A DNA stretch of 41,013 nucleotides from positions 1 through 41,013 of IMG/VR virus record IMGVR_UViG_3300006919_000123, one strand, 5' to 3'. Position 1 is the stretch's first letter. Every line of letters begins with the position of its first letter. Origin of the DNA: a virus. The notes beneath the pieces were generated by a model that made no database searches, was not told where the DNA came from, and saw only the letters and a list, made by a program, of their open reading frames with translations. Below, piece after piece: positions 3,518-10,666 of the stretch. A program made the position numbers and the translations under genes.

Positions 3518-3910
3518 ATGGACTATAAATACCCAGAGCAAATTAAAACAAGGCGTCGGTTTTGGACTGAGCAAGAGGACAACATTTTGGCTCACGGCAT
3601 CAGGACTAAAAAGTCTTACAAGCAGATCAGCAAGCTGGTCAACAGGTCCGAGGCCGCATGCACTCAGAGGGCTTTTTACTTGAGGGAGAGCTTCAGCAAA
3701 AACAATGCGATCGCCCGAAAAGTGAGCGTTGAGCCAAAGCCGGTCCCCGCAAAGCCAAAAGCACCAGAGGTGCCAGACCTAATGCTAGACCGAGTGCTCA
3801 ACGCAGAGCGCACGATCCAGCAGATACCAACTTTAACTTTAATATCTGGTGCCAGTGCGATAATCTCATTTACAACGATGATGATTGTCATCCTTGCGGT
3901 GTACGCATGA
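3518..3910 (+). CDS. SANT/Myb-like DNA-binding protein with C-terminal membrane segment (130 aa)
   Basis: The ATG at 3518 has AAGGAG 7 bases upstream. Residues about 12-50 (RRFWTEQEDNIL then SYKQISKLVNRSEAACTQRA) fit a Myb/SANT-like helix-turn-helix. A basic, proline-rich linker follows. The last 25 residues are hydrophobic (ISFTTMMIVILAVYA), so this may be a membrane-tethered DNA-binding protein, an unusual combination. The stop overlaps the next ATG by four bases. The SANT call rests on motif similarity only. Confidence 0.7.
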   Translation: MDYKYPEQIKTRRRFWTEQEDNILAHGIRTKKSYKQISKLVNRSEAACTQRAFYLRESFSKNNAIARKVSVEPKPVPAKPKAPEVPDLMLDRVLNAERTIQQIPTLTLISGASAIISFTTMMIVILAVYA

Positions 3911-5714: not shown

Positions 5715-7437
5715 CAAAGTCCTCCCAATTCCGGCTAACTCCCTTGATTGTGCTGACCTCTGCTGGCGGAACGTACTCCCTGTATCTTCCACTTGCCAAG
5801 TCATATGTAAGGCACGCAGTCCCCTGTTGGCCGGTCCACTTGAATCTGGACTTCCAGCAATGTATTTCGACGCAGTCCTCTGCGCGGTGAACGGTGATTC
5901 CCAGATCGGCTTTAGCGAACCACGCCGCCGAACCCGAAATATTCATCCCCTTGGGTACTGCGTAGGTTCCGTCTTCTCGGGGGTACATCTTCTGGGGGTG
6001 GGCGACAAACCAAACGTGGATACCGTGGGCCTTGGCAAAAGCGGTGATTCGACTCAGCATCTGGCTAATGCTGTTGTGCTCTTCGGACCCCACCTGCTCA
6101 ATGTAGTTATAGGGATCAATGACGAGACCCCGCACACCCAGACGCATCACAGCCTGCTTGGTCCGCTCAATAACGCTGTCAATCGTGCTCATCCCCCCGT
6201 CTTTCGACTCCAGAAAGACAAAGTGGTCGTTAATAAACTCAACGGACTCCTCTAACTCTTGCTCGGTCATCCTCGGACCCAGTCCATCATAGAATCCCTT
6301 CCCTGACACCTTCTCTGCAAGCTTCGCAATATGCATGTGGGGCGGGTTCTCAAACGAACACACCGCGAACTTCCACGACTCCCGTTGCGCCAGATTGATC
6401 ATAATCTGATCAATAAACTCAGACTTACCGGAGCTGGGCATGCCGGTCACAATCGACAACTGCCCCTCGGCAACCGTGAACAACTCATCGATAGCGTGGT
6501 AGCCGGTGCTTGCTCCTCTGCCGTGCCCGTTGGCGTATATATCTTTGATATCGTTGATGTATTCAGATGCGCCGTACACACCAGACAATGGAACTGGCTC
6601 CGGAGCGTCAAAAATCCGTCGCGTCTCCTCTGCGCCTAACTTGTCAACAGCATCGTTTGCATCCTTCGTGCCTTCGGGGAACTTTACCCGCCAGCACTTA
6701 GCCCTGCCCACGCGACGGGCAATTTCCTCTGCCAGCGCCTCGCCTGCCTGATCGTTGTCAGTCGCTAAAATAATCCGCTTGACCTGCTCCAGACGGTCAC
6801 GCTCCTCCCAGATATAGCTGAACTTGTTGTCCTCTTCTGGCGACACGCGGTTCTGACTGACCTTGGCGGGGGCGCCATTCGGGCATGAGACTGCTTTGAT
6901 CCCCACGCTTGCCAGCGCAATGACATCACACTCGCCCTCGACGATGGTCAGGTCTTCTTCATCTACCCCAATGTGCTCTATGCCGTAAAAAGTTTTTGGT
7001 GCGCCATCGCAAGTGAACCCCTTGCCCTCGACAGACCTCCACTTAATCGCAGTGGGGTTTTCACGCGGACCATAAATAAATCCCACCGCTTGCTTTTGTT
7101 CGCCAGCAAACCATTTTTCGCCTGTGGTCATTGCTGGTAACCCCTCAAGACTATCTAGTGGCACATTGCGCTCGCCGAAAAAGTCGTGAATGAGTTGGAC
7201 GTTATAGTTTAGTTGTGTCGGTATCTTGACTACCTTCTCCATATAAGCCTCGTAGAATTTTTTGCGCCGCACAGCACCAGACAATCCACAGTGATGGCAG
7301 TGGTATAGGGTGCCGTCGGGCTTGATTGTAATTGAGAGTGTTTTTTGGTTTTTTTTCTTTCGTTGGTCGCCGCAATCGGGACATTTGACACGGGAGTCCC
7401 TGTTATGGCCCAGAACGTACTCTTCTAGTGCATCCAT
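5704..7437 (-). CDS. Bifunctional DNA primase-helicase, T7 gp4-like
   Basis: A 577-residue protein close to T7 gp4 in length and layout. Zinc ribbon: C19-x2-C22 and C47-x2-C50. TOPRIM primase core: VEGECD around residues 166-171 with the catalytic Glu, DNDQAGE at 227-233, and KDANDAV at 258-264. RecA/DnaB-like helicase: Walker A GMPSSGKS at 332-339, followed by a GLVIDPYNYIEQ Walker B region. It unwinds the fork and primes the lagging strand in the cytoplasm. It is the first gene left of the palindromic control region, whose leftward promoter probably drives it and the four genes behind it. Confidence 0.95.
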   Translation of the reverse strand: MDALEEYVLGHNRDSRVKCPDCGDQRKKKNQKTLSITIKPDGTLYHCHHCGLSGAVRRKKFYEAYMEKVVKIPTQLNYNVQLIHDFFGERNVPLDSLEGLPAMTTGEKWFAGEQKQAVGFIYGPRENPTAIKWRSVEGKGFTCDGAPKTFYGIEHIGVDEEDLTIVEGECDVIALASVGIKAVSCPNGAPAKVSQNRVSPEEDNKFSYIWEERDRLEQVKRIILATDNDQAGEALAEEIARRVGRAKCWRVKFPEGTKDANDAVDKLGAEETRRIFDAPEPVPLSGVYGASEYINDIKDIYANGHGRGASTGYHAIDELFTVAEGQLSIVTGMPSSGKSEFIDQIMINLAQRESWKFAVCSFENPPHMHIAKLAEKVSGKGFYDGLGPRMTEQELEESVEFINDHFVFLESKDGGMSTIDSVIERTKQAVMRLGVRGLVIDPYNYIEQVGSEEHNSISQMLSRITAFAKAHGIHVWFVAHPQKMYPREDGTYAVPKGMNISGSAAWFAKADLGITVHRAEDCVEIHCWKSRFKWTGQQGTACLTYDLASGRYREYVPPAEVSTIKGVSRNWEDFDEF

Positions 7438-7474
7438 AATAGTTGCCTATCCCTATTTTTTATGATATTGATAG

Positions 7475-7566
7475 ACCCTAGTACTGTCCTAGTCTAGAAA
7501 GTACCCAGCTTAGATCATTACTATATATAAAATTAGTAATGTTCTAGACTAGAACAGTCCTAGTGT
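7475..7566. promoter_or_regulatory. Extended CTAG-rich palindrome in the primase-helicase control region
   Basis: The 174-base gap 7438-7611 has no gene. Two arms, 7475-7499 and 7542-7566, are inverted copies with 22 of 25 positions paired, centred between 7520 and 7521. Six CTAG tetramers sit at 7478, 7489, 7494, 7544, 7549 and 7560 in mirror spacing (11, 5, then 5, 11). Inside the right arm is a perfect odd palindrome, GTTCTAG-A-CTAGAAC (7541-7555). The centre is AT-rich (TATATATAAAATTA). It could be a paired operator, a replication origin, or both; the promoter is not resolved. Confidence 0.7.
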
Positions 7567-7587: not shown

Positions 7588-7613
7588 GCCCCCGCCCATC
7601 GGGGGCTTTTTTT
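7588..7613 (+). terminator. Rightward intrinsic terminator inside a leftward operon
   Basis: GCCCCCG (7588-7594) pairs perfectly with CGGGGGC (7600-7606) around a 5-base loop. Seven Ts follow on the plus strand only. The genes on both sides run leftward, so it would stop a rightward transcript starting in 7438-7587. It overlaps the end of the next leftward gene. Confidence 0.75.
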
Positions 7614-7863
7614 AGGAGCATGCCGTCAGCTCTTCCATGATCATTTTTCCTACGACTTTCTGCTCCGTTTTACTTAGCAACAACATTTCATCTAGGGCGT
7701 CTTGCAGTCCATCCGGAAAACCGGCTATGCCGCAGTGCGCCAAAAACGCAGGGGATTGAAGGTACTTGACGGCGTCCTCTTTTTCAGTCGGCGCAGTGCC
7801 AACCAAGTCACGAATGGCTTGGAATATAACCTTGCTGTAAACCGTCTTATAGATACCGGACAC
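7612..7863 (-). CDS. Hypothetical helical protein (83 aa)
   Basis: The product (start MSGIYKTVYSKVIFQAIRDL) is predicted mostly helical and contains no recognised motif. It overlaps the RusA gene by 17 bases at its start, so the two are co-transcribed. Its stop lies in the T-tract of the rightward terminator. It may assist the resolvase or be unrelated; the sequence does not say. Confidence 0.65.
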   Translation of the reverse strand: MSGIYKTVYSKVIFQAIRDLVGTAPTEKEDAVKYLQSPAFLAHCGIAGFPDGLQDALDEMLLLSKTEQKVVGKMIMEELTACS

Positions 7864-8206
7864 TTATCTCTGCTCTCGGGTCTTCTTTATCGACCCCTCC
7901 CCAAATGATGTGCTTCTCTTTTACCTGCCTGTCATTTTTGTAAATCGGACCCTGCATACAATCTAGTATGAGGGACTCATCAAGATCAGGCCGTCTGCTA
8001 GCATAAAATATTACGATGCGTACCGCTACATCTTTCTCAACCGGAGGGTCAATTGCCTTGCATTGCTTTGCAAAAGACTTGACATAGTCCAGTGCTTTTT
8101 GTGATTTGATGAACAGCGGGCGACCAGTCTTACTCTTAACAAGTCTACGGCTATTTGCTTTGCTACACGGCTCACCGTGAATGATCATGCTGACAATGTT
8201 TGACAT
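7847..8206 (-). CDS. rusA: RusA-family Holliday junction resolvase
   Basis: The 119-residue length is typical for RusA. After an early PCSKANSRRLV segment comes RRPDLDESLILDCMQG, with the clustered acidic residues that bind metal in RusA, then YKNDRQV and a final GVDKEDPRAEISVRYL, matching the family's end pattern. RusA homodimers cut four-way junctions in the cytoplasm. The gene is divergent from the recombination operon starting at 8257, with only 50 bases between them. Promoters for both sides must lie there or within flanking genes; none is clear. Confidence 0.9.
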   Translation of the reverse strand: MSNIVSMIIHGEPCSKANSRRLVKSKTGRPLFIKSQKALDYVKSFAKQCKAIDPPVEKDVAVRIVIFYASRRPDLDESLILDCMQGPIYKNDRQVKEKHIIWGGVDKEDPRAEISVRYL

Positions 8207-8511: not shown

Positions 8512-8557
8512 CGTGGTGCGCGACGGCGACAAGATGCGGGTATTTAGAATCCAGTGA
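8312..8557 (+). CDS. Small conserved phage protein, recombination operon leader (81 aa)
   Basis: The product (start MSKSSMIRIEKDIPIPQRTR) shows the pattern of a small phage family: IEKDIPIP, then LPFHVMEVNESFLAPV, then a helix and a final MRVFRI strand, suggesting a compact alpha/beta fold. AGGA lies 5-8 bases before the ATG. It overlaps the RecB-like nuclease by four bases (GTGA). The biochemical role of this family is unknown; the position suggests a recombination or replication link. Confidence 0.7.
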   Translation: MSKSSMIRIEKDIPIPQRTRLPDLPFHVMEVNESFLAPVSHEEARLVQALRQRVVRFQKQHPPKKFSVVRDGDKMRVFRIQ

Positions 8558-9414
8558 GGATAACCAACCACACAAACCTACCGGAGCCTGTTTATCAGGC
8601 GCTCACTCACAGCGACTATAGCCGTGGGAACAGCAACCGATCTGTGACTCAACTGATTGACTCTCCGCGTGTTCGCATTCTCAAGACTGAGCATGACAAC
8701 CTCATTCAAGAGGACGCATCAGACATGGTCTGGTCCGTGCTTGGCACCGCAGTTCACAACATGTTTGAACAACACCAGCCAGACGGCCACATCGTCGAGG
8801 AGCGGCTGTTCGCAGAAGTGGACAACTGGGTCATCAGTGGCGCCGTTGATCTGCAACGATCCGAGGAAGACGGCACAGTCACCCTTCTCGACTATAAGTG
8901 TACGTCGGTCTGGTCGGTCATTTACGGCAAAAAGGAATGGGACAGGCAGTTAAACTTCTACGCTTGGCTGGTGGAGCAAAATGGCGAGACCAAGGTATCT
9001 GCGCTGAGTATCGTGGCGGTACTGCGCGACTGGCAACGCAACAGGTCTGGCGAAAAGAATTACCCACAGGCGCCGATTGTCATCGTAGATATACCGCTTT
9101 GGAGTCGACAAGACAGGGATAGCTATGTGCGAGAGCGGGTCCGCCTGCACGATGAGGCAGAGTTTCTCAGACTGACGGGCGAGCCACTGCCGCTTTGCTC
9201 TGACGATGAGAGATGGAAAAAGCCAGACACTTTCGCCGTGAAAAAAGAAGGAAACAAAAGGGCTTTGAGGGTGCTCGATTCAATGCAACACGCCGAGGAA
9301 TACATGGGTGAAAAGGAGGGGCTGGCTATTGAGGTTAGAGAGGGTCGGTACACCAGATGCGAGGATAACTGGTGCCGCGTTGCCGAATGGTGCGATCAAT
9401 GGAGGTCCGGATGA
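8554..9414 (+). CDS. PD-(D/E)XK exonuclease, RecB/Cas4-like
   Basis: The start is GTG at 8554, overlapping the previous stop. The 286-residue product has the RecB-nuclease order: GTAVHNMFE near residue 65-75, EERLFAEVDNWVISGAVDL with the metal-binding Asp near 100, and LLDYKCTS with D-x-K near 115, then a QLNFYAWL helix (the Q-x(2)-Y motif). Three C-terminal cysteines (RCEDNWCRVAEWC) recall Cas4/AddB iron-sulphur clusters, but the N-terminal fourth cysteine is not evident. It probably resects DNA ends for the annealing protein encoded next but one downstream. Confidence 0.85.
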   Translation: MRITNHTNLPEPVYQALTHSDYSRGNSNRSVTQLIDSPRVRILKTEHDNLIQEDASDMVWSVLGTAVHNMFEQHQPDGHIVEERLFAEVDNWVISGAVDLQRSEEDGTVTLLDYKCTSVWSVIYGKKEWDRQLNFYAWLVEQNGETKVSALSIVAVLRDWQRNRSGEKNYPQAPIVIVDIPLWSRQDRDSYVRERVRLHDEAEFLRLTGEPLPLCSDDERWKKPDTFAVKKEGNKRALRVLDSMQHAEEYMGEKEGLAIEVREGRYTRCEDNWCRVAEWCDQWRSG

Positions 9415-9632
9415 TTCAGCAAGACCCTGATTTTTATCTCAAGGTTCTTGGGATGATGCAACACTCTAAAAACAAGTTACAGATAATGGTTCACGGCAAC
9501 ACGCTGGCGTTTTACTTGAACGATAAGCATGTTGGCAATCTGGGAGCCGCTGAGTTTTACAAAATGAAACCAAGGGAAGTTTGGACAACACTAGGAGTAA
9601 GCGATGAGCACAAAAAAAACAACCTCCTCTGA
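9411..9632 (+). CDS. Hypothetical protein (73 aa)
   Basis: The ATG at 9411 has GGAGG 5 bases upstream and overlaps the exonuclease stop (ATGA); an upstream in-frame ATG at 9372 is less likely. The product has helical first and last parts around a short beta-like centre (LQIMVHGNTLAFYLNDKHV). No family was recognised. It lies between the exonuclease and the annealing protein, and overlaps the latter by 29 bases. Confidence 0.65.
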   Translation: MIQQDPDFYLKVLGMMQHSKNKLQIMVHGNTLAFYLNDKHVGNLGAAEFYKMKPREVWTTLGVSDEHKKNNLL

Positions 9633-10362
9633 GCCGACGTATCAGTCGGTATGGGAGACGCTGTCAAAGGTCGATTGCAACGACCAAAAGAAAAGCAAGA
9701 ACGGTTTGAGCTATCTGTCTTGGGCTTGGGCTTGGGGCATTCTGATGGAGCATTATCCTGACGCCACTTACGAATTCTTTGATGAGCAACGCGATGCGCA
9801 GGGTTACTGTGAGGTCTGGTGCCGAGTCAAGATTGGCGAGCTAGAAAGGATCATGTGGTTGCCCGTGATGAATTATAAGAACGAGGCCATGCAGAACCCC
9901 GATATTCGCAAGGTTTCGGATACCCGCATGCGGTGCCTGACCAAGTGTATCGGGATGTTTGGTCTCGGCCACTACATCTACGCTGGCGAAGACCTGCCGC
10001 CAGATGACGATTCTCAGGCTGAGCAGAAGCAGGAGAAGAAGCCTGAGCCGAAAGAGGCAAAGGCACCCGTCAAGAAAAAGGAGCCTGTCGCGACGGTAAC
10101 GCCAATCAAAAAAGAGGAGGAGCCAGCGGAAAACCATATCGGCTCCAAGGAAGAGGCTGATAACGTGCTGGGCTTTATGATGAGTACTGCTGACACGTTT
10201 GCAACAGGCACAGAGCAGGACTTGATCGACTTTTGGAAGCAGAACAAGCAGGTCATAGACTTGCTCGATGAAAACTACAACGAGCATTACGAGCAACTGA
10301 AGGGTCACTTCACTGCTCTGCGGCAAAAACTAAAGACCCAAAAGGAGGGAACCAATGAGTAA
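9604..10362 (+). CDS. Single-strand annealing protein, DUF1071/Sak3-type
   Basis: AGGAG lies 6 bases before the ATG. The N-terminal 150 residues carry the DUF1071 pattern: YQSVWETLSKVDCND, then GLSYLSWAWAWGIL, then RIMWLPVMNYKNEA, then DTRMRCLTKCIGMFGLGHYIY. DUF1071 proteins are recognised as phage annealing recombinases of the Sak3 type. Residues about 140-175 are a Lys/Glu/Pro linker, and the last 80 form a helical tail. It anneals single strands produced by the upstream exonuclease. The next gene encodes a protein with an SSB-like tip, completing a phage recombination set. Confidence 0.85.
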   Translation: MSTKKTTSSEPTYQSVWETLSKVDCNDQKKSKNGLSYLSWAWAWGILMEHYPDATYEFFDEQRDAQGYCEVWCRVKIGELERIMWLPVMNYKNEAMQNPDIRKVSDTRMRCLTKCIGMFGLGHYIYAGEDLPPDDDSQAEQKQEKKPEPKEAKAPVKKKEPVATVTPIKKEEEPAENHIGSKEEADNVLGFMMSTADTFATGTEQDLIDFWKQNKQVIDLLDENYNEHYEQLKGHFTALRQKLKTQKEGTNE

Positions 10363-10666
10363 TTATCACAAGACCGATGGCGGTCTCTGGCCCAACAAGG
10401 ACAAGAAATCTCAGAATCATCCAGACAAGACTGGCAGGGTCAAGGTGACCCGAGAGCAGATTAAGGGTCTTATCGCTATGGCAAAAAAGGGTGAGGAACC
10501 GGTGCTAAAGCTGGCCGCGTGGGACCGAAAGGCACAGGATACTGGCGCGCCCTATCAGTATGTTACCGGCGAGGTGTACTGGGACGGAGAGGAAAGTGCC
10601 GCCCCCGCGCCGCCACCTGTGAAGCTTGAGCCGGTCCCCATGTTTGAGGATGATATTCCGTTTTGA
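10355..10666 (+). CDS. Small protein with SSB-type acidic tip (103 aa)
   Basis: AAGGAGGG precedes the ATG by 6 bases. The product has a basic N-terminus, a middle of possible beta character (GQ-like VTREQIKGLIAMAKKG, YQYVTGEVYWDG), a proline-rich linker (APAPPPVKLEPVP), and ends in MFEDDIPF. That end closely matches the C-terminal tip of bacterial SSB (DDDIPF), which docks repair proteins. It probably is a small phage SSB-like or recombination mediator protein. Whether the body is a true OB fold cannot be told by eye. Confidence 0.7.
   Translation: MSNYHKTDGGLWPNKDKKSQNHPDKTGRVKVTREQIKGLIAMAKKGEEPVLKLAAWDRKAQDTGAPYQYVTGEVYWDGEESAAPAPPPVKLEPVPMFEDDIPF

Follow-up and report, generated by a model that had tools for sequence, protein, structure and literature searches.

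Matched arrays of CTAG-ended palindromes at the primase-helicase and terminase loci of a marine phage family are candidate initiator-binding sites

Why should six CTAG tetramers be gathered, in seemingly symmetric order, directly upstream of a phage primase-helicase gene? The cluster lies in the IMG/VR virus record IMGVR_UViG_3300006919_000123, of which we analyzed positions 1 to 41,013 (hereafter the window). The first-pass annotation of this DNA had described the tetramers as standing at mirror spacings, and both their coordinates (7478, 7489, 7494, 7544, 7549 and 7560) and their spacings (11, 5, 50, 5 and 11) were reproduced here; none of 300 dinucleotide shuffles of the window placed six CTAGs within 86 bp, the largest shuffle count being five. 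The 25-nt arms at 7475–7499 and 7542–7566 do match at 22 of their 25 positions, as had been reported, against 19 matches for the best arm pair in 12 shuffles, and the odd palindrome GTTCTAG-A-CTAGAAC noted in the right arm is perfect; a search of the record for this palindrome returned no second copy. The CTAG pattern is real and goes beyond what chance would give. The accompanying statement that CTAG is rare was correct in direction but not in degree, the tetramer being only mildly depleted in the window (99 observed versus 128 expected from shuffles).

Comparison with the upstream regions of relatives revealed that each CTAG marks an end of a 15-bp palindromic unit. In the window, these units follow one another at spacings of 16, 16, 23 and 16 bp, such that an array spanning 7478–7563 has three units on the primase side and two on the other, with an AT-rich gap between them (Table 1). 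A consensus drawn from 74 distinct units reads CTAG-N-A-M-N-K-T-N-CTAG, with a 16-bp period; the inner A6 and T10 of the unit are conserved, and neither was used in defining the primase-side units. Because palindromic units stand in tandem, both the mirror-like appearance of the cluster and the palindrome at the junction of two units follow without any other cause. The symmetric CTAG spacing is thus present as first described, but an array of three plus two units is no true mirror. Judged from its sequence, the CTAG array is a tandem row of putative protein-binding palindromes.

Table 1. Features of the array and its surroundings in the window.
Feature	Position	Strand	Remark
Tail-anchored Myb/SANT-type protein	3518..3910	+	Lead candidate array binder; N-terminal Myb/SANT domain, C-terminal transmembrane segment
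TOPRIM-DnaB primase-helicase, 577 aa	5704..7437	-	Directly downstream of array
Promoter-like site (-35 AGGACA, 17 bp, -10 TATCAT)	7462..7490	-	Consensus match only
Palindromic unit CTAGTACTGTCCTAG (- strand CTAGGACAGTACTAG), primase-proximal	7478..7492		Conserved in relatives
Degenerate unit CTAGAAAGTACCCAG	7494..7508		16 bp from unit at 7478
Degenerate unit TTAGATCATTACTAT	7510..7524		16 bp from unit at 7494
AT-rich gap region, candidate DNA unwinding element	7510..7539		87% AT, top 30-mer of record
Unit TTAGTAATGTTCTAG	7533..7547		23-bp step from unit at 7510
Junction palindrome GTTCTAG-A-CTAGAAC	7541..7555		Two palindromic units side by side
Unit CTAGAACAGTCCTAG	7549..7563		Last of five units
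83-aa protein, confident five-helix model	7612..7863	-	Between RusA and array; mean pLDDT 94.5
RusA Holliday junction resolvase	7847..8206	-	Gene neighborhood of array
Exonuclease, Sak annealing protein and SSB-like protein	8554..10666	+	Recombination set next to array

A row of palindromes might also act through its own secondary structure, as a long hairpin or cruciform or as a structured leader RNA that serves as a switch. Compared with shuffles, both strands of the array give much stronger folds (z = -6.6 and -7.2), and hairpins of arbitrary sequence are found at the centers of some arrays (L071, L146 and L105); the strong folding of both strands, however, is explained by a unit consensus that is itself palindromic. 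When arms were re-paired between genomes, complementarity of the outer units was 0.742, as compared to 0.743 in the real arrays, and that of the inner units 0.610 as compared to 0.629 (p = 0.35), a test on 15 arrays that has modest power and in which signal is entirely absent. Arm-arm covariation no higher than the shared consensus gives argues against a selected hairpin or cruciform. Moreover, the numbers of units on the two sides of the gap are unequal, and an Rfam search of the array element gave no match. On the re-pairing control, the cruciform-based switch that had been put forward for this locus was rejected, and a role for secondary structure of any of these kinds appears highly improbable.

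To follow the array in other genomes, relatives were collected via the primase-helicase and their upstream regions compared. An array is kept at the primase position in approximately 35 relatives with primases 71–100% identical, in every case where the region is covered; loss of the arms with retention of the flanking genes, which the first-pass annotation had named as the outcome that would count against it, was seen in none of the covered relatives with a primase at least 71% identical. More distant relatives mostly carry differently spelled arrays at the same place. No array was present in the primase intergenic region examined in G012 and G020, and no clear array of the CTAG-unit type was seen in the cultured phages HTVC023P, HTVC027P, DSL-LC04 and 023Pt_psg01 (TerL 52–58%). 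Among host genomes, the sole match was a 16-bp tandem repeat, CTAGCAAGCTACTAGA, on a Psittacicella hinzii contig (L104:5035-5105), which is alike in geometry and apparently unrelated.

Pattern scans, together with records that contain TerL, revealed a second array between TerS and TerL. Sites matching the strict pattern CTAGNANNNTNCTAG all fall at the primase or the TerS-TerL locus (29 of 29, with none elsewhere) in the window and in G001, G002, G004, G009, G010 and G042, and the reversed-pattern control gave none. Where both loci of these CTAG-type records are covered, they lie approximately 9.5–11.5 kb apart, for the most part near 10–11 kb. Matched pairs of arrays were found in these six genomes and in G016–G019. 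An unbiased window-pair scan recovered the same two loci as the best pair or among the leading pairs in eight genomes; counts of perfect palindromes by themselves are too weak to detect the arrays in every genome. The window, which begins inside a gene and has no match to TerL, spans one array, since the record is truncated before TerL; the partner is expected approximately 3 kb past its left end. The TerS-TerL copy occurs in more genomes than the primase copy, being present also in G012 and G020. In L136, L137, L138, L139, L140, L105 and L187, the TerL array begins approximately 40 bp past a conserved promoter-like block, TGTCAAGGGGGTATATTCTGTACAATCC. This block is more conserved than a plain promoter, and is kept in G011 despite loss of the CTAG motif there. 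A separate feature of this locus is that the TerL ORF of L102 (5686-7869) is apparently split by an intein-like insertion (CMTGDTPVLMANG..FIANGLVSHN), overlapped by an HNH-type ORF at 6381-6944.

Where the units are spelled differently, the spelling mostly changes at both loci together. Divergent genomes carry AGGAATATTCCT (G016), ATAACTAGTTAT (G017), ATACTAGTAT (G018), a TAAGGGACT-type repeat (G019) or, in G012, TAAGG-N5-CCTTA with a 16-bp period. Sharing of k-mers between primase and TerL regions is greater within than between genomes (permutation p = 5e-5, with none of 20,000 permutations reaching the observed value), a test that is inflated by relatedness because near relatives resemble one another. 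The clearest cases are G016, G017 and G019, each of which ranks its own partner locus first; G011 ranks its own partner third and offers no support for motif sharing, an ACGC-type motif read there by eye not having been confirmed. That the motifs of the two loci mostly match within a genome indicates that one trans-acting factor probably reads both, and a single such factor is the simplest account of these sequences. The reader of both arrays may be a host factor.

The first-pass annotation had also remarked on an AT-rich center, and in the window the gap is indeed the most AT-rich 30-mer of the entire record. Gaps of seven other arrays rank first to third in AT-richness, whereas gap composition is unexceptional in G002 (primase), G011, G016, G018 and G042, and the center of the G019 TerL array is GC-rich. 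As a side observation, the centers of L071 and L146 (G019) hold perfect hairpins of unrelated sequence between similar arms (CTCTCTCTC/GAGAGAGAG and CCCCCC/GGGGGG).

The sequences around the array contain further signals. The promoter-like -35 element falls inside the primase-proximal unit, and relatives retain the primase-side -10 (TATCAY/TAGCAT). An inverted repeat, CTAYC..GRTAG, surrounds the ribosome-binding site of the primase gene at 7440-7475 on the minus strand; it is missing in L026-L028, its pairing sides co-vary in L006 (CTACTC/GAGTAG) and L025 (CCATC/GATGG), and it is possibly a translational operator or a second protein site. On the other side of the array, an intrinsic terminator on the plus strand (7588-7612; GCCCCCG..CGGGGGC followed by T7), opposite to the strand of the flanking genes, is retained next to the 83-aa gene by almost every close relative. 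It implies either that a short rightward transcript leaves the array region or that antisense transcription is blocked. Most relatives also conserve the 83-aa gene itself, in the interval from RusA to the primase.

Which protein might bind the arrays? The 83-aa protein was rejected as a candidate, as the RusA-to-array interval of G019, a genome with arrays, did not contain it and its model has no convincing PDB match; a LexA-type binder was likewise set aside, since the ORF with a LexA DNA-binding domain beside the L101 and L115 arrays is missing from 13 other records. The lead is the Myb/SANT protein, whose N-terminal part is similar in fold to Myb domains and to the DNA-binding domain of GcrA (Foldseek, with weak E-values). 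All CTAG-clade records that extend far enough downstream to cover its position encode it, and no other record searched does; L030 has two paralogues. Were this membrane-anchored protein to bind the arrays and position phage DNA, the arrays would be centromere- or tether-like sites, which we consider very unlikely: the apparently complete genome G042 (60.9 kb) has CTAG-N7-CTAG units at both loci and no Myb/SANT protein, contradicting its role as array binder, the protein was also not found in the fragment L087, and co-occurrence with the clade may be plain inheritance. A more elaborate proposal, which we consider improbable, is that the protein tethers both arrays to the membrane and thereby links the start of replication at the primase locus with either packaging or late transcription at the terminase locus, and that in other lineages the recognition code has been swapped at both loci together with the binder.

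The first-pass annotation had suggested a paired operator or a replication origin, and both readings survive beside the replication gene. Its more specific version, a plus/minus-strand origin, gained no specific support; GC skew tracks gene direction. We tentatively favor the interpretation that the arrays are matched initiator-binding sites, that is, origins. By this mechanism, one phage-encoded dimeric DNA-binding protein would occupy both arrays and open the AT-rich gap, allowing the adjacent primase-helicase to load; a bound array copy may also stall forks, and so promote a switch to concatemer replication with the neighboring recombination proteins, as proposed for SPP1. Retention of the array upstream of the primase in close relatives, the confinement of all strict sites to two loci with motifs shared within genomes, the AT rank of the gap in the window and seven other arrays, and the proximity of a primase-helicase together with RusA, exonuclease, Sak and SSB-like proteins all speak for origins, as does the SPP1 precedent of two origins with an equivalent protein set. 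Searches of 14 records found neither an integrase nor an HTH_3 (CI-type) repressor above cut-off, a lack that also speaks for origins and that removes a lambda-type lysogeny operator from consideration. Against origins stand the absence of the initiator families Phage_rep_O and Phage_rep_org_N (PF04492 and PF09681; positive controls worked), the ordinary or GC-rich centers of the arrays listed above, the lack of a primase-side array in G012 and G020, the want of motif sharing in G011, and the position of TerL arrays just downstream of a promoter-like block, which would suit gene regulation equally well. With the model of a further initiator family, RepA_N (PF06970), the positive control itself gave no signal. 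DnaA-like boxes are no commoner than chance and absent near the array, so an origin built on DnaA boxes was discarded.

The main rival is that one phage regulator acts at both arrays as twin operators and controls the primase-helicase and TerL (late) operons in a coordinated way, giving a virulent phage its early/late switch. The overlap of the primase-proximal unit with a promoter-like -35 whose -10 is conserved, the conserved block preceding the TerL array, palindromic units of the kind used by dimeric regulators and the concerted motif change would all fit such a regulator, and we regard this as a credible but less probable explanation; simple promoter control would not need as many as five to six units flanking an AT-rich gap, both promoters are consensus matches only, and the missing CI-type repressor and integrase count against it. 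Iteron arrays can act as origin and operator both. Alternatively, TerS could recognize the arrays as a pac-like packaging signal, the primase copy being secondary. The TerS-TerL interval is the classic position of a packaging site and holds the more widespread copy, and a TerS (Terminase_2) was found in each array genome that allowed the check. A dimeric binder, however, would fit two-fold palindromic units better than a ring of TerS would, L101 and L102 keep CTAGGA-type units with TerS proteins that look quite unlike the one in G001, and a primase copy of equally conserved architecture is left unexplained, making packaging an unlikely function.

Known phage systems share several of these features, the closest analogue being SPP1. 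In phage lambda, the replication region has a single ori, inside gene O, where imperfect palindromic iterons stand in tandem beside an AT-rich stretch; the arrays resemble it in having tandem palindromes and, in some cases, an AT-rich stretch beside them, but occupy two loci in genomes where no Phage_rep_O homologue was found. Satellite phage P4 has two separate cis sites, ori1 and crr, with the same iterons and tied to a primase-helicase, the alpha protein, which carries an origin-binding domain; two cis sites and a primase-helicase recur here, whereas no origin-binding domain is visible in the 577-aa protein. In Bacillus phage SPP1, oriL and oriR lie approximately 13 kb apart, each with repeats and an AT-rich unwinding element (DUE), and both are bound by gp38; once forks stall at oriR, its resolvase, exonuclease, annealing protein and SSB are proposed to drive the theta-to-sigma switch that yields concatemers (PMC6316719). 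Like SPP1, the genomes described here have two repeat arrays approximately 10–13 kb apart, one in the replication region and one late, in some arrays an AT-rich element, a resolvase, exonuclease, annealing protein and SSB, and, we infer, one protein acting at both arrays. SPP1 differs in having direct repeats and in carrying oriL within its initiator gene, 38. Here, palindromic units occupy intergenic DNA, a gp38-type gene was not identified, and helicase and TOPRIM primase form one fused protein.

In the Corynebacterium prophage CGP3, an early-promoter repeat array at alpS is bound by AlpA, a phage DNA-binding adaptor that supports replication and has an actin-like partner (PMC4446434); it differs from the arrays here in its TTAAnnG motif and its concentration at one operon. 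Mycobacteriophage stoperators are repeated regulator sites that are asymmetric and spread across the genome (PMC9283540), whereas the sites described here have two-fold symmetry and occur at two loci only. One article on the closest cultured phages makes no mention of palindromes, of inverted repeats or of an origin (PMC9599517).

Two arrays read by one initiator are thus already known, from SPP1 and from P4; what is unusual here is the palindromic unit with a 16-bp period, the partner in the terminase leader, and the way in which the spelling shifts in concert within an uncultivated marine phage family that is apparently virulent. Together, these features point to a class of matched-array cis-elements, found in no annotation or paper searched, whose recognition sequence mostly changes in step at both loci. 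Under either the origin or the operator reading, the 15-bp unit is a directly testable DNA target for finding the binder. As operators, the arrays would mark an early/late switch; as origins, they would predict the start sites of replication in many metagenomic phage genomes and suggest that the two-origin plan of SPP1 recurs in unrelated marine phages.
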